Shown here one piece after another: positions 1 to 23,925 of a stretch of 35,452 nt of DNA (position 1 is the first letter of the stretch; each line of letters begins with the position of its first letter). The translations under genes were made by a program, and so were the position numbers. Where the stretch lies: the IMG/VR virus record IMGVR_UViG_3300025141_000351, positions 1 through 35,452 of that record; one strand, written 5' to 3'. This DNA comes from a virus. A model generated the notes under the pieces. The model was not told the origin of the DNA and did no database searches. It worked only from the letters and a program-made list of their open reading frames with translations.

Positions 1-1319
1 CCAGATCCTTGCTCTTTGTGCTCGTTGATAACGTTGTAGTTCTTTCGAATATTCTTAGAAGTATTATTATAGATTGTGTAGAGCAATGAATCAACGATGC
101 TAGATTTGCCACTATAGTTTTTACCAAATATTCCAACAGTTCCAGCAAGCTTAGTAAAGTCCAACTCGTTGCCTTCTCCATAGTTGAAAAGATTATCCCA
201 TTTAAATTTCTTAATTTTCCACGAAACATTTCTAGTTGTCTCCTCATCAGACTCTGCCAGCGCGTTGTACTTCGCGTTAAGAGAGTAAACTTCATTCAAA
301 GTTTTTTCATTAACATTGTACTCTTTTAAATATTCTGCTATAAGTTTTTCTTGCACACTTTGATCACGCAGATTTTCGTGAATAACAGAATCAACCTCTT
401 TATCAACACTTATGCGGCTTCCGCGTTGTGCTCGATTTAAAAAAGAAATAGACTCTGGTTTAAACCGCGTCTTAGCGATATCTACGGCCTTTCTAAAGAT
501 TTCGATGCTCTGGTTGTCCGAGGAAACCAAACGCAGCCTAGCCCCCTCTGGGGGCCTTGTAGCCCTAGGGATTCCGCCGGCGGGGGTGAGGTTGATCGTG
601 ACGAAGGGTTTTGGGTTCTTAAGCTGGTGAAAATCACAAGTAAAGTTGTCTTTATCTTTAATGTCCCAAAGTAAAAAACCTTTGTCTAGCGATTCCCCAA
701 AGTTCTGCTGAATTAGCGAACCGGGATATCGAGCCTTGCCGTGGTCGTCAATAGTCTGATTTGTCTTGTGAATATCGCCAAGAAGGCCATAGTCGAAGTT
801 TCCTAAGAAGTCAAGATCGATCTCGCCGTGTTCCATAATCCAGCCAGTGTCCGTTTTCGATCCGGCGACTGCACCGTGATAGAGTGCGACGTTAGTCTTG
901 TTTAGGTCTGTCGGAGCGGCCCACTTGTCTTGATCAAGAATAGAAAGGACATTAAGCACAATGCCGTTGCCCACATCCACCTCTTTCGTGTACTTGTGGA
1001 AGTGAATGTTCGGATCTTCCAGCGCATCAACAAGTGGTGACACCGCATCAAGGCGACTAGAATTCTTGACATTGCAGTCGTGGTTTCCTAGAATCATATG
1101 TAGCGGAGCAATCTTCGCTAGGCTAGTAAATAGCCACGAAGTCAAGTTGAAATACTCTGGACTTAAATTACATTTGGTATGTGCTGTGTCTCCTGTGTTG
1201 ACAATAATGTCTGGTTTAAGCTCTTCCAGCTTATCAAAAAGCTGCTGAAAGACTTTTCTATATTCATAGTGATACTTGTAGTTCCGCACATGAATATCGC
1301 TAATGTGCGCTATCCTCAT
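1..1319 (-). CDS. Fused SbcD/Mre11 nuclease - SbcC/Rad50 ATPase (3' partial)
   Basis: The minus frame from the ATG at 1319 stays open to base 1 (439 codons read), so the C-terminus is outside the window. Residues 1-185 carry the metallophosphoesterase motifs of Mre11/SbcD/T4 gp47: D8-x-H10, GDTAH at 43-47, GNHD at 78-81, YHG at 147-149 and GDIH at 181-184. A capping and helical segment follows. From about residue 375 the same chain becomes the N-lobe of an SbcC/Rad50/T4 gp46 ATPase, with Walker A GKNYSGKS at 399-406. Family knowledge: the Mre11-Rad50 complex processes DNA ends for recombination; in T4 gp47 and gp46 are separate polypeptides. Here they appear fused. The stop of the primase gene lies nine bases upstream and a GAGG ribosome site overlaps it, so the two are probably translated together. 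Domain calls are firm; the extent of the coiled coil and C-lobe is unseen. Confidence 0.9.
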   Translation of the reverse strand, partial: MRIAHISDIHVRNYKYHYEYRKVFQQLFDKLEELKPDIIVNTGDTAHTKCNLSPEYFNLTSWLFTSLAKIAPLHMILGNHDCNVKNSSRLDAVSPLVDALEDPNIHFHKYTKEVDVGNGIVLNVLSILDQDKWAAPTDLNKTNVALYHGAVAGSKTDTGWIMEHGEIDLDFLGNFDYGLLGDIHKTNQTIDDHGKARYPGSLIQQNFGESLDKGFLLWDIKDKDNFTCDFHQLKNPKPFVTINLTPAGGIPRATRPPEGARLRLVSSDNQSIEIFRKAVDIAKTRFKPESISFLNRAQRGSRISVDKEVDSVIHENLRDQSVQEKLIAEYLKEYNVNEKTLNEVYSLNAKYNALAESDEETTRNVSWKIKKFKWDNLFNYGEGNELDFTKLAGTVGIFGKNYSGKSSIVDSLLYTIYNNTSKNIRKNYNVINEHKEQGS

Positions 1320-6531: not shown

Positions 6532-9500
6532 TTATTTCACTCCAGAACGCACAACTTCACCGTCATCCAGTATAATATCATATGATGCATCACTAGTAGA
6601 CGTGATTTTACGTTTTCTGAAAGTGATATTTAAATCTACTCTTCTTTTGGTTTTGGTCGAGGTTATTCTTAATTTGTATTTGGGGAGCTTCACTTTGTCA
6701 TTGAAGAATTCCTCCCGATTTGACAGATGTTGATTTAACTCGTGCTCAAAAGTCGACTCTTCTTCATACCCCAAATCACCATTTTTTTGTGGCGCAACTT
6801 GTAAAAACGAAGGGTCGATTCTTAATTTTTCTTTAAAGAAAATGCTCTTCTTTCGCTTAGCCTTTTCAATATCCGGAAAGTCTTTAATCTCCACAGACTC
6901 AACTACCGGCATTATAACGCCACCTTCGTCAACAAGCTCTACCGAATATACAACTGAAGAATAAGATATCTCGTTGTTTTCGCCGAGTACTCTTGCCATA
7001 TAATAATATTTTTGATTTGGCTTTAATTCATCAATAATGTGGGCAGTATCCCACGCCTCGCCAGTGGGCATATATTTTTTGCCGGTGGCGGCCTCCTGCT
7101 CCTGCCCAGAGACCCACTTTGCCTGATTTACGCCGGCGGGCGGGTTCAATACTTTATAGGCGTTTGTAGTGGGAACATCTTTGTTATATGTTCCAAAATC
7201 ATCATAGCTTTGAGGCATTTCGGTGGTGCGGTAGAGTAGGAAATTTTTGGCTTTAAATTTCCCAGTAAACATAACCATTTCATCTTCTAAGTGATCCGTA
7301 TCTTTTGGATCAAGCGCTGGGACGTTCTCTTCCCAGCTAAACTTTTTACGCTCGTCTTTTGTGGTTTCTTTAATTACATTGCCTAGGCCCTTCTCAAATA
7401 AAATGAGAATTTTATCATTTACTCCTTTATAGGGATAAATGTGTAAAAGCGGCGGTCGAGGTGGCATAGTTTTTACAGGTTTGGGCGAATATGCTACAGT
7501 TTGATTTTTTGGATCAAATTCATCTTCGTCTGTCATATCCCAACTTTGCGGCTTAAGAAGCGGGACTTCGACAAACCTCATTGACGGCTCTTCTTCTATG
7601 AGCGCAGAAAAATCGAACTCTTGTGATTCACTTTTCCATTTCCCTTCGCCAAATTTTGCCATACCGGGGGCTTTGTTCGGATGAGTCTTGCTCCACATTA
7701 ATGGGTATTTTTCGAATGCTTCCTCGGCGGAATCTAAGTTAATGGGGCCGGCCTTGGTACTATCGCCGGCGGGGTCAACATACCAAACGCATTTCGGATC
7801 TTTTTTGCAGCCGGCACACCCAGACATAAGAATAGGCTTCTCTTCCGATTTCACATCTTTAGTCAGCCATTTACAATCCGGATAACCTTCTGGTTCTTTA
7901 TAATATTCTATACTTGGCAATTTGCACTCTATGTTCCGATATCGGTACCTTTTTCCATACACCAGAACAACTGCATAAAGTCGATATGAATACTTTTCAT
8001 CATATTTAATTTGAGTATCAATATATTCATGCATACTAGGGGCAGAGAAAACAATGTTGCCATCTTGATTATATTGTAGGCCCAATTGGGCAACGCCGGT
8101 CCATTCATGATTAGGAAAAACATAAAAATTAGAAACGATTCCGTCTCCTAGGGCGCCTGCGGCGCGTTTTACGATTTTATAAGCAACTATTTCATTTCTT
8201 GCAAACGCACCCAGACTTTTAGCCTCTCCGTAAGTAACATAGGGCGAAATTCCAAGACTAGCAAAAGCCCGGTTGGCCATGCTGAGCAAATTAAAGCTGT
8301 CGGGCTTGCTCTTTTTAAAATCTTTAATTGAACCAAACCCAAGTCTCCGATCCTGCCATGTACTAAGATCTTTAAGCTCTGCATCGCCCGGGCCGTAAAT
8401 ATATTGTTTCAAAGAAATATCTGACTTAAACTGGCTGTCTTTTAGTTCCTTTGCCTTCTCCATATCAGTCGGAGGAGTGCCTGCATAATCACCATAACTT
8501 TGTAGTTTAACCGCGTGGGGCAATTTATAATCAGCAGACTCGTAGATGTAGCCCTCTATTTCATTTTTTTCGTTGGCAATGAGTTTATTTGTATGCTGTC
8601 TAAACGCCCCATGGGTTAAAGCCGCGAAGCCTCTTCCCTCCACCATGTGGCCCAACATAATTGGAGCTTGTCTTGTCACGGGGTCTTCTTGGCCAAGAAC
8701 GCCAAACTGAGGAGTAAATTGTATAGCATTATAAAAAGGATAATCTATTTTTTCCTTTAATTCAATTTTGTCCACCTCTGGATTGCTTAGCGTGTCAGCC
8801 GCAATTGCAATATTAGTGGGAGTTTTATAATTCGCACTGTATTGGCATATGTTGTTGGCGTCTTTACCCATCGAGCCGGCGCCATGACTGGGCTGCATAT
8901 GATTTTCATAAAACATTTGAAGGTTTGCTTCATTGATTGATGCATCGTGATGACACTTGCTATAACTATGAATATTGTGAACAACCCCGAAGCGCCATGG
9001 ATAATTGGGATAAGTTATATCCGTTTCATATGACCTGTACAAAAAATTATAATCATAAAACCACTTTGATTTATCCATTGTGACTTTCATTAATTTGTGA
9101 GTTTTGCTCCACTCAGCCGCTTCTTCTTTGGCCGACAGTTCAAAGGGCATAACCGCCCAATTACGAGAGGCGCCGTTTGGTTTACCATCCATCTTTTCTA
9201 AATAATGCCAAGTCATCTTAGCATCGCCAGTTGTCAGCGGCGGCATTATCTTACCAAATATTTTATCTTTAATAGCCCCAAGTTGAAGGCTTGTATAGCC
9301 GCTGTACTTTCCAAAGAAAAAATTGCTGTTAGGATCAGCGTCTAGACCTTCATACTCCTGTGCTACCGGTCTCATATATTCTGGTACATTAACCAACGTT
9401 ACATTTGCCGGCCGGGTGGGGTTGTCGTCGTAACGAATGGTTGTTCCAAATTTATTTACAGTTTCCGGCTCACCTTGCATTCCGCGTATTTCCCAGTTTA

Positions 9501-10020
9501 GGCGAGGTACTGGTGCGTCAGTAGCTGATATTGAATCGATAGCAGACCGGAAAGCGGTGGCCCACTCAAGCGCCGCTTTGAGTGCATTTTTGTCGGCGGT
9601 TGTGTGTGGTGCATCGGATACAGCATCAAGCGCGTCTTTGGCAGCTAACTGCGCCGCAATTGCTGCATCGCGATTGGCTACAACAACCTGCACCTCTGAG
9701 TCTGGAAAGCTTCCAAAAACTTGCGCTCTGAATTGTTCAAATTGCCACGGGCCGCCGGGCAGCACTTGTTCGGCCATCCACGATGGCACGCTAGCCGGGG
9801 AGAGCGGCGACTTGCTGGCAAAATTGATTCCCGGGTTTGGAAGATAGAAATTCGGCGGTAGCGCTCCGTCAGGTCGCGTCTGTGAGGGCTCCGGATCAAT
9901 TGCCCAGATCCTGTTTGTATAAAATCTAATTGGATCTGAAGCCTGTCCAGATCCATCAGCGCGATCTACATAATGATCGTGGAAAAAAACATTTGCTTTT
10001 TTTGATATTTTTTTACTCAT
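6532..10020 (-). CDS. Large virion protein with two Fn3-like segments (1162 aa)
   Basis: Predicted tail/baseplate protein; no enzymatic motif seen. The N-terminus is Pro-rich and polar, and residues 120-180 are Ala-rich and probably helical. Two stretches look like fibronectin type III folds: about 612-693 (VAYKIVKR to YSYRLYAVVLVYGKRYRYRN) and about 928-1030 (FLLYRTTE to ELKPNQKYYYMARVLGENN). Near residue 732 a small cluster GCAGCKKDPKC could bind a metal or form a disulfide. The C-terminal ~65 residues are basic and strand-like (KYKLRITSTKTKRRVDLNIT). The ATG at 10020 shares a base with the preceding stop (TAATG) and has only a weak GAG upstream, so translation is probably coupled. A receptor- or partner-binding role is inference from the modules. 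Confidence 0.7.
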   Translation of the reverse strand: MSKKISKKANVFFHDHYVDRADGSGQASDPIRFYTNRIWAIDPEPSQTRPDGALPPNFYLPNPGINFASKSPLSPASVPSWMAEQVLPGGPWQFEQFRAQVFGSFPDSEVQVVVANRDAAIAAQLAAKDALDAVSDAPHTTADKNALKAALEWATAFRSAIDSISATDAPVPRLNWEIRGMQGEPETVNKFGTTIRYDDNPTRPANVTLVNVPEYMRPVAQEYEGLDADPNSNFFFGKYSGYTSLQLGAIKDKIFGKIMPPLTTGDAKMTWHYLEKMDGKPNGASRNWAVMPFELSAKEEAAEWSKTHKLMKVTMDKSKWFYDYNFLYRSYETDITYPNYPWRFGVVHNIHSYSKCHHDASINEANLQMFYENHMQPSHGAGSMGKDANNICQYSANYKTPTNIAIAADTLSNPEVDKIELKEKIDYPFYNAIQFTPQFGVLGQEDPVTRQAPIMLGHMVEGRGFAALTHGAFRQHTNKLIANEKNEIEGYIYESADYKLPHAVKLQSYGDYAGTPPTDMEKAKELKDSQFKSDISLKQYIYGPGDAELKDLSTWQDRRLGFGSIKDFKKSKPDSFNLLSMANRAFASLGISPYVTYGEAKSLGAFARNEIVAYKIVKRAAGALGDGIVSNFYVFPNHEWTGVAQLGLQYNQDGNIVFSAPSMHEYIDTQIKYDEKYSYRLYAVVLVYGKRYRYRNIECKLPSIEYYKEPEGYPDCKWLTKDVKSEEKPILMSGCAGCKKDPKCVWYVDPAGDSTKAGPINLDSAEEAFEKYPLMWSKTHPNKAPGMAKFGEGKWKSESQEFDFSALIEEEPSMRFVEVPLLKPQSWDMTDEDEFDPKNQTVAYSPKPVKTMPPRPPLLHIYPYKGVNDKILILFEKGLGNVIKETTKDERKKFSWEENVPALDPKDTDHLEDEMVMFTGKFKAKNFLLYRTTEMPQSYDDFGTYNKDVPTTNAYKVLNPPAGVNQAKWVSGQEQEAATGKKYMPTGEAWDTAHIIDELKPNQKYYYMARVLGENNEISYSSVVYSVELVDEGGVIMPVVESVEIKDFPDIEKAKRKKSIFFKEKLRIDPSFLQVAPQKNGDLGYEEESTFEHELNQHLSNREEFFNDKVKLPKYKLRITSTKTKRRVDLNITFRKRKITSTSDASYDIILDDGEVVRSGVK

Positions 10021-16100: not shown

Positions 16101-18793
16101 CAATAGCCCTCTTCATATGATTCTTTTGTGAAAAAGTGGTATTTGTTACCAAAAGGTATATCTATTGAAAACTCTTTTCCATCTTTGATTAAATTAAATT
16201 GTGTTGGCGAATGCTTAGTGGTGATTGGGGTTTGGTTAATTCTATAGCGCCTTGTAACCTTTCTAACCTTTTGGTTGTCGTAATCAAGCGACACATGCAG
16301 GTTTTCATAAATGTTGTTTCTTCGAAGAACTTTAGCAACTGGATGTTCCCCCGTGCGAAGTTGTTTCCACGATGGATATCCATAAGGGCCATTATAATTT
16401 TGATATATATATGCCAGCACGGAGTCGGTTTGCGATGGGTTTGTAAGATTAAACATATTGGGATGAACATATGTTGTGCCGGCATGGTTGAGCGCAAGCA
16501 ATGTATTTGGTTCTGCAAGCATTGTATTCTCATCAAATTCTAAAATTTGAATATCTCCAACAATAACAGCATTCATCCCAACAAAGTCGAGTATTGTTTC
16601 TTGTTCTTGACCTTCGTTATAAACAGTTATCAAAGGGCCCTCGCTTTGACTTACAAATGGTATACCCTCAAGTAAAGTGTCGGCGGCCAGCACTTGTGCG
16701 CGGCTGGCGTTATAGAAGTCGTGATAATCAAAGCCAAAAAATGGATTATACATAGAAGATGTTAAATTGGTTATAGTTTCTAAATCTGAAGAAACTGCTC
16801 CGTCTGGAGCAAACGTATATACTGACGCGTCTCTCACCCACTTGTATTGTAACTCTGTTCTTGGTATTTGCCGGTTAACAAACCAATTGTCATATGAAAT
16901 GCTAGCACTGGTCGCAACAACATCCGTTGCATCCGGTGCTGCAAAAAATTTATTAGCCTGTCGCAATAGGTTTCTGGGCGTTTTGTGATATGAGGCGCTC
17001 ATTGGCGTCGATGAATCATAGCCGCCACTTAAAGAGTGTCTGGTATACAAAGTGTCTAAAGACTTTCTTGCATTATAATTTCTCCATGGCAGAGCGTTAT
17101 ATGGAGAATACTGTCCCGCTTCAATGTCTAAATACGCCGTTGAACTCTCCAATATCCCGCCCGGGGCTGAAAATCTTTCAACAATAACATGATCATTAAC
17201 GACGCTGTTGACGCTACGATCTGGCAAAGCGTAGTCTATAACGGGAACGTCTGCCGACCAACTGACAAAAGTTGAATTTGTTTCTGTTACAGAAATTTCC
17301 CCTCCGCGAGTAATAAATCTATTATTTACATCTCTACCAGAAGTTTGTACAATTTCATATGAAGAACTATAGTTTCCAATGCTATGATGCTGATTAGCTG
17401 AAGCTGAAACAGTTCGAATATTTCTAATATTTACAGGGCGTTTTGCATACCCCCCTCTTGTATATTTTCCTATAGGTTTGTTCAGGTCATATGTGCCATT
17501 AACAATTCTAGGGTTGCCGATCGTAATTAGATTGTTGGCTGTATCAACGCCGACTCTATAGCCTTCGCTCCGGTCGTTAGACCCGGTTACAAGCAGCTGT
17601 CCGTGTCTGTATTGGTAGCCACCAACAGTTTCTTCTGTCCACGGGCCCTGTAGCGGCACCTCCCCATAAGAATCTAAGTGCATATTTTCTAATGAAATAT
17701 TATACGCCAGACCAGTTAAATCGTTTGAAGCGGTTATAGAAGAACTAAAAACCGTGAAAGGCAATCTTTCTTGTCTGTAATATTCTCTTTCTGAATCTCC
17801 CAAAGAGGATCCGTCATAACACCGCATACGCATTTTTCGTCTAGGATCAACATAATCTAGTGTAATCTGATCTAATCCATTATCAACTGCCTTAAATGGC
17901 AATCCGTAATCGTCATCTACAGATGAAGTGTAAAATTCAGCATAAATCCCATCAGCAGGGTACCCACTAATTGTTTTCTCTTCTTCATATTTTCCATAAA
18001 TATAATTTACATTTTGTTTTCTTTTGGGGTTTGAGCCCGGGCCGTAAGTCTGGTAAATTTCATAAGAGTCTTTCACGGGCCTAGAGTGTTCTCGCTGCAG
18101 CGCTCTAATTTGATTGTGTCGGATTTGGACTCTATTCTGTGCTATGCCGCGGTGGCCACCGCCGCCGACAAAGGCGGCGGATCCAGCCACCAAATTGGCG
18201 TGGCCGCTTATACTAATATTGTTAGCCTCAGAGCCGCCGGCGAGGGCTTTAATCGTCTTGGATGTGGCCGCAGCACCGGAAGAGGCTGTAAGGGCGCTGA
18301 CGCCGCTAGACGGCTTGCTGGCGGCGCCGCCTGTGGTGATTCCAGAGCCATATTTAATATTGCTAGCATCGACAACACCATTAATTGCATCAACAATTTT
18401 ATTTAATGTGCTGGTTGTATCGCCCTGAATCTTTACGTGGATTTGAGTCGAACTCGGCGAACCTAAACTAGTCATAGTAAAAATTCTTATTGTATCGCCC
18501 GTGCCTGCGGCTGAGACTGGAACACCAATATCAAGATAAATTCCATTTGAATGAGCGGAGCATATCAAGCAATCTATACACTTTGCGTTGTAAATAAAAG
18601 GCTCTCTATCTCGTTCGGCTCTGTACTTCCACCAAAAACCGTGCTTTCTTTCATTTCCGGGCGCACCGGTCGAAGATGTGTGCACAGAAGATTCTACATA
18701 TGATATCCGCTTATTGCCATCATATATACTAAGGTTTCCGATTCCTACTGTCTTCTCAAAATGAGGATCTTTATTTTTTACATTACCCGCCAT
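13136..18793 (-). CDS. Giant virion protein, tail/baseplate (1885 aa)
   Basis: The largest gene in the window and of unknown precise function. The protein is Tyr/Asn/Ser-rich and beta-like, typical of phage fibres or baseplate periphery. Near the N-terminus there is a C-x2-C-x2-C cluster (C72, C75, C78). Residues about 90-200 form an Ala/Gly/Ser-rich segment with TLNKIVDAINGV and EANNISISG, reminiscent of small beta domains found in flagellar hook-associated and phage adhesin proteins; its DNA (about 18130-18350) is visibly richer in G+C than its surroundings. The C-terminal ~350 residues are more charged. The frame extends to an ATG at 18910, but only the ATG at 18793 has an AGGAGGG site, and it joins the previous stop as TAATG. 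The extra 39 residues are Arg/His/Thr-rich shadow sequence of the upstream gene. Confidence 0.78.
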   Translation of the reverse strand: MAGNVKNKDPHFEKTVGIGNLSIYDGNKRISYVESSVHTSSTGAPGNERKHGFWWKYRAERDREPFIYNAKCIDCLICSAHSNGIYLDIGVPVSAAGTGDTIRIFTMTSLGSPSSTQIHVKIQGDTTSTLNKIVDAINGVVDASNIKYGSGITTGGAASKPSSGVSALTASSGAAATSKTIKALAGGSEANNISISGHANLVAGSAAFVGGGGHRGIAQNRVQIRHNQIRALQREHSRPVKDSYEIYQTYGPGSNPKRKQNVNYIYGKYEEEKTISGYPADGIYAEFYTSSVDDDYGLPFKAVDNGLDQITLDYVDPRRKMRMRCYDGSSLGDSEREYYRQERLPFTVFSSSITASNDLTGLAYNISLENMHLDSYGEVPLQGPWTEETVGGYQYRHGQLLVTGSNDRSEGYRVGVDTANNLITIGNPRIVNGTYDLNKPIGKYTRGGYAKRPVNIRNIRTVSASANQHHSIGNYSSSYEIVQTSGRDVNNRFITRGGEISVTETNSTFVSWSADVPVIDYALPDRSVNSVVNDHVIVERFSAPGGILESSTAYLDIEAGQYSPYNALPWRNYNARKSLDTLYTRHSLSGGYDSSTPMSASYHKTPRNLLRQANKFFAAPDATDVVATSASISYDNWFVNRQIPRTELQYKWVRDASVYTFAPDGAVSSDLETITNLTSSMYNPFFGFDYHDFYNASRAQVLAADTLLEGIPFVSQSEGPLITVYNEGQEQETILDFVGMNAVIVGDIQILEFDENTMLAEPNTLLALNHAGTTYVHPNMFNLTNPSQTDSVLAYIYQNYNGPYGYPSWKQLRTGEHPVAKVLRRNNIYENLHVSLDYDNQKVRKVTRRYRINQTPITTKHSPTQFNLIKDGKEFSIDIPFGNKYHFFTKESYEEGYWVVGPGSAEFTPLNRMNDFNDEFDIIPNYDNSKFVKMADRPWTLVNYSETVYPRDENVGKSITVNRDYWRRTRDYYSEYGSPWPRSEGGINIQESFWSDDQNDRISYRVNSQGDTILASSWPMEVVTASTPSEEKSGELMRFDTCFLANTYGADGGACPVAATGSEVNAKFGRFYGHCRPQSEVTVNYFPIGGGETGGYPPFPESYAKWAADLATRAKTLGYSILPEFRISEYIRTIDSEVETDYYGKGAYTLRVDGVYDNNQIGSGVLHLETYSHSDKINNLDTFRQHYDEPTAIELTMDVLVKFRPRKEFYPVYRTLDLAEQFSQSYGNEASLTGSQKSWRTVLAPFYAPGIMYNSIKAGIAVDYPFVDMTQNQSATAPTGGCHDVYENRMPFEAILEPAHYSQQVKRNQFNPIYQATTMFDWDPENPIDSTGSIGATDGVYEKMAHNFFAETIDFFTQNVTTIKSKPLSQWQEKMAGEKLWTGGDNNMSLEQVANGVTDSTDTSYIKKYAMDVFIKKKGAWAQSTAAHWFGAYPYVHHVPPYWASSPTNLLDPDDADKSAFLGSGWATVCVEGQKCCTGASLNPTMSMGENESYMRIVFDPTVIAASEPERFLKGAFTVSDIANNSEFTFVNVGMENALGSTPAGAMPLSSSINIFGLDNEDRWTVAPKWESLIRNYAYEGENGLIPSIDDYNSPFPSIWQQQGKDFTKKTEGLFLEVKSSDLSDNITTGSLVDMAGFELGEKRIGEAKAKKVLQEAIVAIPFYTNKQGIEQFLNIPIEQFEEAYSIVKEDKTAEQSLNSIVDLINKMRKYVMIPQFDFVKTRDESTEPLVTAYDYFVRKTMQPFAMYIFETTVLANKTDLQQYWENNFNKGSASQDATLTKIKISHPIKDGEMISPEMLRLAGLEGKLPSDLRFKIFKIKYKAQTNYYETYEKYTGVTSKYHYKTPKFSYNWPYDYFSLAEMGKLEVTLQVENKSIVTGSATEA

Positions 18794-21700
18794 TATGACC
18801 CTCCTGTTGGTACGCCACCGGGTAGTGCACCGCCGCCGCCTGTGCCGCCGCCTGAAGTGCCGGCAGATTTGCCCGGCGGATATTTGCAGCACTTCTTGGG
18901 TGCGCAGCACTTATATTTTTTAGTAGTAGCGTTGTTATTAATCTCTTTCCACGCATTTGGATTCATCGCCTGCCAGTCGGCGCCGAATTGGCCGCTGTAT
19001 GGACTATTCTTGGCCTTGTCGTCACAACAGTATTCATACATACATTTACTTGGATCGTGGACGGTTCTTTTATGAGAAACATAGTTCATAGATTTCGTAC
19101 CCGGAAACGGGCTGGGGGCGCCGGGCGGCAGGCTGGCCGCGGCTGGTAGAAATCCATCATCTTTGCACGCCGGGAATAAACATAGTGCGTTGTCTGCCGA
19201 GGTCGGCTCCTTTGGGGTTTTTCCATATTTATCTTTGCCAAAGTTTGAAGCTTTGGCAATTGTATTTCCACTTTTGTCTTTTAATTCTCTTTGCTTACAA
19301 ACAGAATTATGCTTACATAAATTTTGATCATGCTGTACACACTGATTACCATACGTATTTTGATGCTCTTTGTAGTTTGAGGCTTTTTTGTCTTTGCAAC
19401 ACTTGTATTTGCACCTCTTTGAATCGGGTACATTTATTAAGTCCGTGCCATTGCGGAGGTTTGGATCGCCACTCTTGGGGCAGCCTGTTATTTTGCAGCA
19501 ATGGTTTGATTTATTATTTTTTGTACAAGGCTTTGTATTCGGATCAGAATCATAGTTAACAACTTCTAACCCAGCAGCTTTCTCTTGTGTAGACAGAACT
19601 TTTTTGCAGCCATACTTATATTCACACAAATCTGGATTACATTTACTACATTCGTTTCCGGTCAGCGGGTTCTTCTTATCCCAGTTTCCGACTTTTTTGC
19701 ATGTATTTTTCGCGGTGGGATCACAACAGCCAACAACATCTTTGTATTTGCAACAATCCTTACATACGCCCGGGCCGCAGCCTTGAGGTACGTTATCTGC
19801 TACCTCTTTTACCTTCTTCCAATAATTTGTTGCGGCGCTATCATAACAACCCTCTAAATATTTACATTTTTCATTATCCTTTTCTTTAGCTTTCGGATCA
19901 TAATTAGAAGCACATTTATCAGTGCAGCCGGATTTATATTTACACGGGCCAGCATCGGTGGCGCACGGATCATAATTTAATGCATTTTTGTCCCTACACC
20001 CGTAAAAGACACAAGACCCAGGTGTGTGCACATCCGCCTCCGGATCATAATTATCTGCAAAGCGGCCTTGGCCGCCGAGATTTCCCTGTGTGCACAAAGC
20101 TTCGCCGGGCCATTGCTTACAGCCTTTAGTTTTCGGCTTTGACGGCGGCTGGTGCTTTTTCACGGGGTTGTTGTTTTTTGGCTTACTTTTCTCTTTTGTT
20201 TTTGTTTCGCCGTTTTCATCACCGCCGCCGCCGGTGGGAACCACATCAATAATTATTTCATCGTCGGATTGCCAATTTAGATCGGTAGGTATTATATTAT
20301 TATGATCATAAATGAGGACGGCGACCTCTATATCTTCACCAAGATCAACGTTGCCCGGAACCCCAGGTATAACTTGCTGTATGCCGGGGTCATCAAAATT
20401 AACTTCAGTCTCTTTTAAGACATCAACAGTCGGGTCGTCGTCTGTTTCATAATTGTTGTTTGGATCGAGCGGAATGCCTATCCATGGCGGCTCAGTAGGT
20501 CCAGTGTGGCCGGCATCGCCGGGGCTCGGCATAGTCAGAAAAAGTGGCGCTGGGTACCGGTATTTATTGCGTGACAACACATGATTTTCAACAATAGTTC
20601 GCACTTCTTCAGAAGCGTTTGCCGAAGCTGGAATTAAATTAGCCACCGCCGTATCAAGCGCGTTGTCCAGCCATTTATATAATTCTACAAACTTCTCTAT
20701 GTTGGTCACTTCCTCAATCTTATCAAAAAACAAGTGTCTAAGTTTTTCTAACCCTTTATACTTGCCTCTATAGCGATTTACTGGTTCGCCAATTTGATTA
20801 TTAAAATCATCAATAGAGGCAAAGAAATTCAACATTCTTCTAGATATTATTTCGTACATACTTGCTTCTATCGAAAAGAAGTGTTTAACAGGCCTAGACT
20901 CTCTAGTAAAAAAGAGATCGTCTGTAGATAAAATATTTACGAGATCGCTAGAATATAAATTCTCTGGCTGCAATTGCCTATTGGTTGGAATGAATTCAAA
21001 AGTAGTTGGCAACTTACTAGCTGTAAAGCCGTAACCCTTGGCTGTGTGGTTGGCTTTGGCGTGGGCGCCGAAGTTGCCATAGCTATCTCGCAATGTCGCC
21101 GATCCAGAGGAAACATCTCTTATTAAAAATTCACCACTTGAATCCGCTGTTAGCGTCGTTTCGAAATCCCAATTGAGGGCCAGCGCTTCAGCTTTAGGAA
21201 TGTGGCCGGTCGCGGTGCCGGCTGAAGATGATAAAACACTTTGAGCCGGATTCAATCTGCCAAAGTTATTTGGATCTTTGGCATGATACTGCATTTCTTC
21301 ATCAGAAATATAATCATGCCACACTCGCAAAGAAGAAAAACGAACATCAGACTTTACTGAAACGCTTCCAGTAAAGCCATCTCTGTGAGCGCCAACAAAG
21401 AATCTTTTGTTAGAGCCGGTTATAAAATCGCCAGCAGTGTCTGTGGAGATAGAAGATGACAAAGAAAACTCATCTAGCACTTCTCCCAAATAATTGTTAA
21501 TGCCATAAAAATCTAAATAAAATCCAGAAGAGGTAATCACATTTGAAGAAATTGGATAATTCGTAGGCCTGACCCTAACGGCGAAATTCCATTTTGAATT
21601 ATCATACACTTTCGCGCTAGATTCTCCGTCTTGTGGATATGTACTAGTACTAATCTCTGGCAAGAAGCCGGTTGAACTTGTTAGCCTAAAATAAACACGT

Positions 21701-23925
21701 TCGCCGTTGTCAACTTTAACGGCTTGGACCTGAAAGTCTCTGTCTGGGCTGCCAAACAATGAATCAGTATCGTCCATGCTCGCCGTAGAACTATGGCAGC
21801 CGAACAAAGAAACTGTTGTCAATAGTGATAAGTCTGACGAACCGGTGTGATTTGAAGTAGGAAGTTTTGGAAAAATAACTTCTGCCTCTGCGCTAAATGG
21901 CACATAAAGATCCGAAGACGCAGAAATAAATCCGTAATCACTTGAAGAGCTAGGATACTGATATATCACCGCAGATCTATCCCCAGATCTACTGTTGAAA
22001 CCAGTAAAATCAATTACCTTCTTTTTTGTAGCCACTGATTCATGCGTATTTTTTAATTCGTATTCAACGTTGTCGCCATATAAATTGAGCCTGAACAAAT
22101 CATCATCTACGCCAAAGCAGCGAAATAGGTTGCGAAAAGCTTTTTCAGTGCCCTTTGATTTATTAATATATGAAAGATTGTTATATATGTTTTTGTATAT
22201 TAAATTTTTAACATTGTGAAGCTTTTCTTCATATAATTTCTTTTCGCCTCGGGCCAAAATTTGCTCAATTACTTTAGATTGCAAAAATATCTCAGGCGGG
22301 TCAAACCCCGTAGATGTTAATAATTTTTTATTATGCGGTATTGGCTTTATGCTACCAGAAGCATAATATGGTTCTTTAAGTCGATTTATATGACTTATTT
22401 GTCCATACAAGGTGTCTAAGTAGCTGGCCACCATTTGCAATAAGTTTGCCAACGTTTCGCCAGTTTCACCATCTTCGTCTCTTATCCACTGAGGCATTGA
22501 ATTATAAAGGCTAGCATTGTTTGCTGCATCGTGCTGTGAACCACTAGTTTCCAGATCTGTTATAAGTGCTTGTACATCTGAATGACTGCTATAAACAACC
22601 GGGCTTCCTTTTTCTTCATCGGTGGCTCCGGAATCAACCATCGCCGACCCTGTATGTCTAGCGCCGGAAGAGTAACCGACCCACTGCCCATTTGAAACGC
22701 GCCCTGAATAATCTAAAACAAGATCGTCATCAAGCGCTGCAGTAGTAGAACCTAAGATGCCTTCATTAAATTTATAATAAAGGCCCAAGTCGACCAAGTT
22801 GCTGTCTATACTGCTGCTATAATAATATTTCGCCTTATCTGTGTTAGTTCCGCCGGCGACATTGGTAAAATAATTACGACCTATTTCCTGTGCGCTTCTT
22901 GCTGTTTTCCAAAAACGAAAATCATCAAGCGAGCCAGAAAGCTTACCATAGCCAAGATAACTTGTAGCACTGGTTAAGCCACCACCTATAGCGGCAATTG
23001 TTGCTATACTAGAACCAGTTAAGTGGTGGGCAAGGGCCAAGTCTGCGCCGAGATCGCCGGTCGCTGACACAGACTTATAAACGCCGTCGACATAAAGCTC
23101 AACTTGGTAATAATTGTCGTCAGATATAGAAAAAACAATCGCATAGTGATGCCACAAACTATCAGCAATGGTTGTCAAGCCAGTGTCTAAAGAAGCTGCG
23201 ATTTGAGTAGTATATCCAGTCGGCCAGCCGGTGGCCGGATATGCTACAGCATAATAAGAAACTTTTAAATTGCCGGGCGATGTCGAATCAGTGTAGATAA
23301 ACAGCCTTCTCTCGTCGTCAACATTTTTTATGTAAAAAACACATTCGTTTTGCGTTTCAGTTGATGCATTTAGGAATACATCCTTTTTTAGCCAAAATTC
23401 AACCGTGGCGCCATTAGACCAATTAACTTCTAAATTGCTTGTTTGGTTGACCTCTGTGTCATAAATATTATCTTTATGTGGGCCGCCATACGCTAAAATA
23501 TATTCAGGCGTATCTGTTTGTCCAAAGCCGCTTACCAACGTGCTGGTGCCGTCCCACGTAGTCGCCGCGGCGCCGAACGTTACATATCCAGTTTTTTTCG
23601 GATAATTATTATCAAAAACATATTGTTCTAGCGGAGTTAATTCATTATAAAATTTAAGCTGCTCGGCTTTTGAGCCGTCATATGGGTATTGGTTATAAAT
23701 TCTCTTTATTGCATTTGTATAATATTTACTGGCTAAACCAAACTTTGCAAAATTAGCAGGATCACTATAATCTACATCTGGTAAATATTGACTTTTATCT
23801 TTGGAATATTCTTTTACTAATTCCGGAGACTCAACATCCGTAAACAATTCCGCTAACGTCTTCTTTGTTAAGCCACGGGTACCTGCTAATTGCTTCTTGT
23901 GTTTATCAAGATATTTTTTAGTCAT
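18793..23925 (-). CDS. Giant LamG-containing tail protein with Cys-rich repeats (1710 aa)
   Basis: Likely a baseplate/tail-fibre protein that binds surface glycans. It starts with a charged region (YNQYPYDGSKAEQ, ELTPLEQYVFDNNYP) that looks like an assembly domain. A LamG/concanavalin-like domain follows at about 150-360 (ATVEFWLKKD, LWHHYAIVFS, GSLDDFRFWKTARSAQEI), with a second degenerate one at about 640-880 (WNFAVRVR, SSLRVWHDYISDEEM). Residues ~980-1150 are helical and charged. After a Pro/Lys linker, residues 1268-1682 hold about eleven degenerate Cys repeats (separate entry). The last 28 residues are Gly/Pro/Ser-rich. The ATG directly follows the previous stop (TAAATG) with a GGTGG site. 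Coming two genes after gp6, it could stand where T4 has gp7, but that is only positional. Glycan binding is inferred from the fold. Confidence 0.78.
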   Translation of the reverse strand: MTKKYLDKHKKQLAGTRGLTKKTLAELFTDVESPELVKEYSKDKSQYLPDVDYSDPANFAKFGLASKYYTNAIKRIYNQYPYDGSKAEQLKFYNELTPLEQYVFDNNYPKKTGYVTFGAAATTWDGTSTLVSGFGQTDTPEYILAYGGPHKDNIYDTEVNQTSNLEVNWSNGATVEFWLKKDVFLNASTETQNECVFYIKNVDDERRLFIYTDSTSPGNLKVSYYAVAYPATGWPTGYTTQIAASLDTGLTTIADSLWHHYAIVFSISDDNYYQVELYVDGVYKSVSATGDLGADLALAHHLTGSSIATIAAIGGGLTSATSYLGYGKLSGSLDDFRFWKTARSAQEIGRNYFTNVAGGTNTDKAKYYYSSSIDSNLVDLGLYYKFNEGILGSTTAALDDDLVLDYSGRVSNGQWVGYSSGARHTGSAMVDSGATDEEKGSPVVYSSHSDVQALITDLETSGSQHDAANNASLYNSMPQWIRDEDGETGETLANLLQMVASYLDTLYGQISHINRLKEPYYASGSIKPIPHNKKLLTSTGFDPPEIFLQSKVIEQILARGEKKLYEEKLHNVKNLIYKNIYNNLSYINKSKGTEKAFRNLFRCFGVDDDLFRLNLYGDNVEYELKNTHESVATKKKVIDFTGFNSRSGDRSAVIYQYPSSSSDYGFISASSDLYVPFSAEAEVIFPKLPTSNHTGSSDLSLLTTVSLFGCHSSTASMDDTDSLFGSPDRDFQVQAVKVDNGERVYFRLTSSTGFLPEISTSTYPQDGESSAKVYDNSKWNFAVRVRPTNYPISSNVITSSGFYLDFYGINNYLGEVLDEFSLSSSISTDTAGDFITGSNKRFFVGAHRDGFTGSVSVKSDVRFSSLRVWHDYISDEEMQYHAKDPNNFGRLNPAQSVLSSSAGTATGHIPKAEALALNWDFETTLTADSSGEFLIRDVSSGSATLRDSYGNFGAHAKANHTAKGYGFTASKLPTTFEFIPTNRQLQPENLYSSDLVNILSTDDLFFTRESRPVKHFFSIEASMYEIISRRMLNFFASIDDFNNQIGEPVNRYRGKYKGLEKLRHLFFDKIEEVTNIEKFVELYKWLDNALDTAVANLIPASANASEEVRTIVENHVLSRNKYRYPAPLFLTMPSPGDAGHTGPTEPPWIGIPLDPNNNYETDDDPTVDVLKETEVNFDDPGIQQVIPGVPGNVDLGEDIEVAVLIYDHNNIIPTDLNWQSDDEIIIDVVPTGGGGDENGETKTKEKSKPKNNNPVKKHQPPSKPKTKGCKQWPGEALCTQGNLGGQGRFADNYDPEADVHTPGSCVFYGCRDKNALNYDPCATDAGPCKYKSGCTDKCASNYDPKAKEKDNEKCKYLEGCYDSAATNYWKKVKEVADNVPQGCGPGVCKDCCKYKDVVGCCDPTAKNTCKKVGNWDKKNPLTGNECSKCNPDLCEYKYGCKKVLSTQEKAAGLEVVNYDSDPNTKPCTKNNKSNHCCKITGCPKSGDPNLRNGTDLINVPDSKRCKYKCCKDKKASNYKEHQNTYGNQCVQHDQNLCKHNSVCKQRELKDKSGNTIAKASNFGKDKYGKTPKEPTSADNALCLFPACKDDGFLPAAASLPPGAPSPFPGTKSMNYVSHKRTVHDPSKCMYEYCCDDKAKNSPYSGQFGADWQAMNPNAWKEINNNATTKKYKCCAPKKCCKYPPGKSAGTSGGGTGGGGALPGGVPTGGS
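18799..18805 (-). promoter_or_regulatory. Ribosome binding site fixing the start at 18793
   Basis: AGGAGGG on the minus strand, five bases before the ATG at 18793. It lies inside the end of the 1710-aa gene, whose TAA shares a base with this ATG, giving a coupled start. It rules against the ATG at 18910, which would overlap the upstream gene by 118 bases. Confidence 0.85.
18880..20124 (-). repeat. About eleven degenerate Cys-rich protein repeats
   Basis: Residues 1268-1682 of the 1710-aa protein repeat a pattern close to GC-x-D-x2-A-x-NYDP-x-A, then C-x-Y, at intervals of about 24-50 residues. The clearest copies are GCRDKNALNYDP, GCTDKCASNYDP, GCYDSAATNY and CKDKKASNY; others are looser. 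I count about 40 cysteines in about 415 residues. At the DNA level the NYDP codons recur as ggatcataatt on the plus strand (near 19893, 19966 and 20042), but the copies are otherwise diverged, so this is an old protein repeat, not a recent DNA duplication. Similar GC-x-D-x2-A-x-NYDP motifs occur in secreted proteins of environmental bacteria and in some aquatic phage proteins, by memory. Confidence 0.85.

Follow-up and report, generated by a model that had tools for sequence, protein, structure and literature searches.

A genuine and conserved Mre11-Rad50 (SbcD-SbcC) gene fusion in a group of uncultured tailed phages

The gene at the contig end and its neighbours

The stretch of DNA analysed here, called the window, is the entire 35,452 nt viral record IMGVR_UViG_3300025141_000351. 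Positions 3-1319 of its minus strand form a single stop-free open reading frame of 439 codons that starts with ATG and runs off base 1. From this frame, its domain matches and full-length relatives, we identify it as the first 439 codons of an Mre11-Rad50 (SbcD-SbcC) fusion gene that the contig end truncates before its 3' part. A reading made from the sequence alone had described a complete metallophosphoesterase passing in frame into a Rad50-type head, in a gene cut by the window edge; both statements hold, and every motif that it named is in place.

Residues 1-295 (positions 435-1319, minus strand) make up the Mre11/SbcD part, with phosphoesterase and capping domains and the motifs D8-x-H10, GDTAH (43-47), GNHD (78-81), YHG (147-149) and GDIH (181-184). 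A helix-loop-helix at residues 320-357 (249-362, minus strand) comes just before the junction, and the Rad50/SbcC head begins at residues 366-439 (3-224, minus strand) with Walker A sequence GKNYSGKS at residues 399-406 (102-125, minus strand). Pfam, PHROGs and NCBIfam independently agree on this order of phosphoesterase/SbcD first, then the beginning of a Rad50/SbcC head. Metallophos was matched with an E-value of 4.4e-13, AAA_23 with 1.4e-5 (slightly short of its cut-off), PHROG 100 (SbcD) over residues 1-346 with 4.5e-37 and PHROG 77 (SbcC) over residues 298-437 with 1.7e-13. These Pfam and PHROG values exclude chance as the source of the matches to both domains.

Upstream, on the same minus strand, lie genes for a DnaG-type primase (1329-2270; PHROG 47, E 3.3e-48), which ends 9 bases before the fusion gene, and for a RuvC-like Holliday junction resolvase (2288-2803; PHROG 159, E 1.9e-11). 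In one relative, L010, a primase-sized gene (9050-9991) and the fusion gene are found in the same order and spacing, and terminase and portal genes follow within ~3 kb downstream of the fusion gene. T4-type baseplate wedge proteins are encoded elsewhere in the window, and judged by its gene content the genome is that of a contractile-tailed phage. Its baseplate genes, together with the terminase and portal neighbours in L010, rule out a giant-virus origin. Neither SbcC nor SbcD was matched in the Flavobacterium immuto phage, which is close to the window by its baseplate. The window also encodes a 1710-aa structural protein (18793-23925, minus strand) with a laminin-G-like domain and, at its C-terminus, a repeat rich in cysteine (GC..xNYDPxA..C.Y), and searches of the window for Rfam families and tRNAs found none.

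There was no match in PLSDB that would indicate plasmid-borne copies, and a genome scan for cellular copies returned only a few MAG contigs, at least one of which (L098) is visibly phage-like. This is a 2.8-Mb WOR-3 MAG chromosome (CP070664.1) that carries a truncated fused gene, containing a stretch of Ns, beside genes for a primase and a RuvC-like protein of the same type of phage, and it may represent a prophage or a misassembly. A Bacteroidales MAG contig (L102, 4971-5822) carries a 284-aa Mre11-like frame with no Rad50 directly attached, near primase-like and RuvC-like genes, and is possibly a non-fused relative.

Full-length relatives and the reality of the fusion

A first-round search found nine viral contigs encoding relatives that span all 439 residues. 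The closest of these (L002) is 91% identical, and its frame extends to 1052 amino acids through a coiled coil, a hook, the signature SGAEK and the Walker B sequence IILDEP; in all nine contigs the frame is free of stops to 1036-1065 residues. A profile search gave at least 600 candidate stretches, 580 of them encoding relatives, and the best 80 of at least 580 were kept (among them three from first-round contigs, one truncated at the edge of its locus and a number of near-duplicates). The fused frame measures ~1030-1080 residues across the loci of both rounds (9/9 and 80/80). Among nine large relatives, every genome matches SbcD once and SbcC once, both within the same gene.

Downstream of the part that the window covers, the relatives continue with a coiled coil, a two-cysteine hook, the signature motif, Walker B and an H-loop. 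The sequence-only reading had expected a coiled coil, a CxxC zinc hook, an ABC signature and Walker B to follow in frame. Coil, signature and Walker B do so in 9/9 and 80/80 loci; two hook cysteines are likewise present, but most members lack the classical CxxC spacing. The observations that it had named as speaking against a fusion, namely a stop or frameshift, an error joining two genes, or a missing coil or Walker B, were encountered in none of the 80 further loci.

Purifying selection on the junction is strong. Between the window and four close relatives, dN/dS is 0.016-0.082 in the helix-loop-helix and linker and 0.033-0.185 in the Rad50 start, with synonymous sites at or near saturation in several of the four comparisons. 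These data bear on a rival explanation, that a sequencing error or assembly join erased the stop between adjacent genes. Fusions of accidental appearance do occur, as in Listeria phage LMTA-57, where one frame of 1009 aa has a linker like read-through and the relative P100 has separate annotated genes at this place. In the family described here, however, all 80 loci kept (the best 80 of at least 580 relatives), which are mostly 44-52% identical to the query, have both parts in a single frame, and selection acts across the junction, where synonymous change has reached or approached saturation. We therefore reject an artefact for this family as exceedingly improbable. The fusion is genuine and conserved, and is widespread within one group of uncultured tailed phages.

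Several individual loci have peculiarities of their own. The linker in the fused SbcD-SbcC frame of LMTA-57 (L014, 2905-5934) resembles the intergenic stretch of related phages, and this frame may reflect an error or a recent fusion. Behind the gene, two loci (L091, 6935-7902; L076, 9150-9359) repeat its final ~65-70 codons, from Walker B to the end; in L091 a GIY-YIG-like endonuclease frame lies between both copies, which looks like a trace of homing at the Walker B region. In the 484-kb uncultured phage LR756508.1 (L015, 3944-8166), a frame of ~305 aa with several CxxC pairs interrupts the Mre11 part between GDIH and GSLIQQN, and is probably an intron or intein-like insertion.

Conserved residues and predicted structure

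None of the 81 sequences (with the best 80 of at least 580 relatives as source) departs from the metal-site residues D8, H10, D44, N79, H80, H148, D182 and H184, nor from G404 and K405 of Walker A. Signature residues S964 and G965, Walker B residues D994 and E995, and H1027 of the H-loop do not vary in 74 of 74 relatives. The full Mre11/SbcD motif series (DxH, GDxx(D/H), GNHD, H and GxxH) is thus present, and the Rad50/SbcC series (Walker A, coiled coil, signature, Walker B and H-loop) is complete in the relatives; the window itself holds Walker A only. Motif II reads GDxxH and motif V reads GDIH, with Asp standing where Pyrococcus has His206. The GDxxH form and the Asp replacement are both found also in Mimivirus R555 (PMC3175470).

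An AlphaFold model of the L002 protein, built from a 74-row alignment, has a mean pLDDT of 83.8 and a pTM of 0.49, a low value that leaves the placement of the domains, including that of the helix-loop-helix on the coil, not established, while secondary structure and domain folds are. Residues 1-295 of the model match the nuclease and capping domains of Staphylococcus aureus SbcD (7dog_A; Z 25.0, rmsd 3.4, 271 aligned), and the fold of both domains is present. Residues 367-1052 match E. coli SbcC (7yzo_D; Z 30.8). The best viral structural matches are full-length giant-virus proteins, for example Tupanvirus A0A6N1NVE8 (1318 columns, 22% identity).

Model helices at residues 320-334 and 338-357 form the helix-loop-helix, which is followed by a linker of ~8 residues and by the first Rad50 strand at residue 366. 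In the model, this element is located where Mre11 carries its Rad50-binding helices, with which it ordinarily holds the base of the Rad50 coil. Because the helix-loop-helix is retained just before the junction, docking of Mre11 has probably not been lost but takes place in cis. The earlier suggestion that fusion removes the need for a separate docking of the Mre11 helix is accordingly not favoured. Its companion proposal, that fusion forces a 1:1 stoichiometry, does follow from a single chain, but separate Mre11-Rad50 complexes are already 2:2.

Coiled coil and hook

Coil helices occupy approximately residues 546-904 of the model, or roughly 170 residues per arm. The tip of the coil in the relatives (that of the window's gene falls past the contig end) has the pattern PC-x6/7-C in 70 of the 81 members and C-x2/3-C in 10. 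We consider this two-cysteine tip to be a putative zinc hook, with a spacing unlike the classical CxxC in most members. A similar VPC-x7-C tip is seen in the separate, non-fused SbcC of Moorella phage MTATph1, which indicates that this type of hook is not tied to the fusion. Cysteine spacing in phage Rad50 hooks varies widely, even within one family, with C-x2-C, C-x3-C, C-x6-C and C-x7-C all represented (L017, L032, L043, L085, L094, L095 and others).

Between close relatives the coil and hook are 16-73% identical, compared with ~79-97% for the other parts (heads and nuclease). It is doubtful, though conceivable, that coil and hook constitute an exchangeable or fast-diversifying cassette, its hook taking the PC-x6/7-C form in some members of the family and other cysteine spacings in others. 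If so, the coil tip would be the adapting part of the protein, for example towards partners or host defences. Coiled coils drift fast, and low identity of the coil is therefore no proof by itself of cassette exchange.

Proposed function and alternatives

We propose, with a probability of roughly 0.88, that the gene joins a phage Mre11/SbcD nuclease to a Rad50/SbcC ATPase in a single chain of ~1050 residues that docks in cis, forms a homodimer and processes DNA ends for RecA-dependent replication. Two copies would pair via their Mre11 domains and, with ATP, via their Rad50 heads, giving the two-plus-two complex as a homodimer. The helix-loop-helix of each chain would dock on the base of its own coiled coil, with the short linker merely tying the parts together. 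ATP binding would shut the heads over the nuclease, and hydrolysis would open the nuclease to DNA ends or hairpins for resection, while the hook at the coil tip may join molecules or ends. The resulting single-stranded DNA would pass to a RecA-like recombinase of the phage, to be used in recombination-dependent replication and the repair of ends, comparable to the task of gp46/gp47 in T4. Such a T4-like role in end processing is suggested by the primase and RuvC genes upstream, by the terminase and portal genes downstream in L010, and by the presence of RecA in most large relatives (seven of nine; the two without it are 58-kb and 67-kb records that are probably fragments).

A conserved single frame could still yield separate products, by an internal start or by protein cleavage, and the working complex would then be an ordinary one of two proteins. 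A methionine does occur within window residues 336-369 in 36 of the 81 members, but the other 45, including the window, have none in this interval and no conserved internal methionine start is seen, which makes such an arrangement quite improbable. Alternatively, the protein might act against the host or competitors, by breaking down host DNA or excluding plasmids or rival phages, rather than in replication. LmuB-like SMC nucleases act in such exclusion, and PADLOC models of LmuB (E 1.7e-19) and mad3 (E 8e-22) show moderate similarity to the fusion protein. These matches, however, map to the ATPase of Rad50/SMC type that all of them share, and the recognizable neighbours are primase, RuvC, terminase and portal, with RecA in most large relatives. 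We consider this defensive or offensive function unlikely, and retain end processing for replication as our preferred reading.

Comparison with known systems

The organization as separate proteins that the sequence-only reading cited for T4 and bacteria does apply to T4-type gp47/gp46 and to SbcD/SbcC, but fused forms have been known since 2011. Yoshida, Claverie and Ogata (2011; PMC3175470) described an Mre11/Rad50 fusion in Mimivirus R555 and twelve further sequences, one of them from Bacillus phage 0305phi8-36. They also found many homologues in aquatic metagenomes, some adjoining primase genes of phages, and proposed a phage origin for many of them, although the marine fusions were traced on short scaffolds only (PMC3175470). 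In our full-text literature search for later fusion reports this paper was the only dedicated study found, and a search for single-polypeptide Mre11/Rad50 in bacteriophages found nothing. The window gene belongs to this already known kind of fusion and is not unprecedented. Full-length fused genes on contigs with primase, RuvC, terminase, portal and baseplate genes now give direct support to the 2011 conjecture of a phage origin (PMC3175470).

Compared by its description (PMC3175470), R555 likewise carries Mre11 N-terminally and Rad50 C-terminally in one chain, retains the helix-loop-helix and has a short linker, besides sharing the two motif departures noted above. One frame, nuclease first, and a helix-loop-helix with short linker are all found in the present family, and the primase adjoining the window fusion recalls those beside the environmental viral homologues of R555. 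The two differ in size, R555 having 1351 residues as against ~1050 here, which implies a shorter coil, and in host genome, a giant virus versus a tailed phage. A small tree of Mre11 domains, made for counting fusion events, left 12 of 17 forks open, with long branches meeting and some rows poorly cut.

The search for further fused phage proteins that the earlier reading had advised was productive, yielding fused genes in Microcystis phage Mel-JY01 and Thermus phage phiLo. The closest isolate in the phage collection has ~30% identity over the full length. The Mel-JY01 protein (WWT39521.1, annotated as 'AAA domain containing protein') is a fused, full-length match of 30% identity with a primase upstream, and the baseplate protein of this phage is among the nearest relatives of that in the window. 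Its hook is CKHCC, as against C-x7-C in the window's relatives, and the kinship is only distant.

T4-type gp47/gp46, for example in Synechococcus phage ACG-2014h, are also a phage Mre11/Rad50 pair in the order nuclease then ATPase and likely have the same role. In ACG-2014h they are two genes with a small gene between, and its Rad50 is shorter (576 aa) with a CPTC hook, whereas one frame covers both parts in all 80 loci examined here (best 80 of at least 580). E. coli SbcD/SbcC have the same folds and probably the same logic of an ATP-gated nuclease, but are separate proteins, and the scores obtained with the canonical SbcC and SbcD models of NCBIfam fall far below their curated cut-offs (TIGR00618, 54.8 against 478.5 bits; TIGR00619, 38.8 against 77.65 bits). 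The fusion leaves the view of how Mre11-Rad50 works unchanged, although a single chain of only ~1050 residues could suit structural work. The uncommon spacing of the C-x6/7-C hook and the strong variation of the coil add only minor points to the fusions already known.
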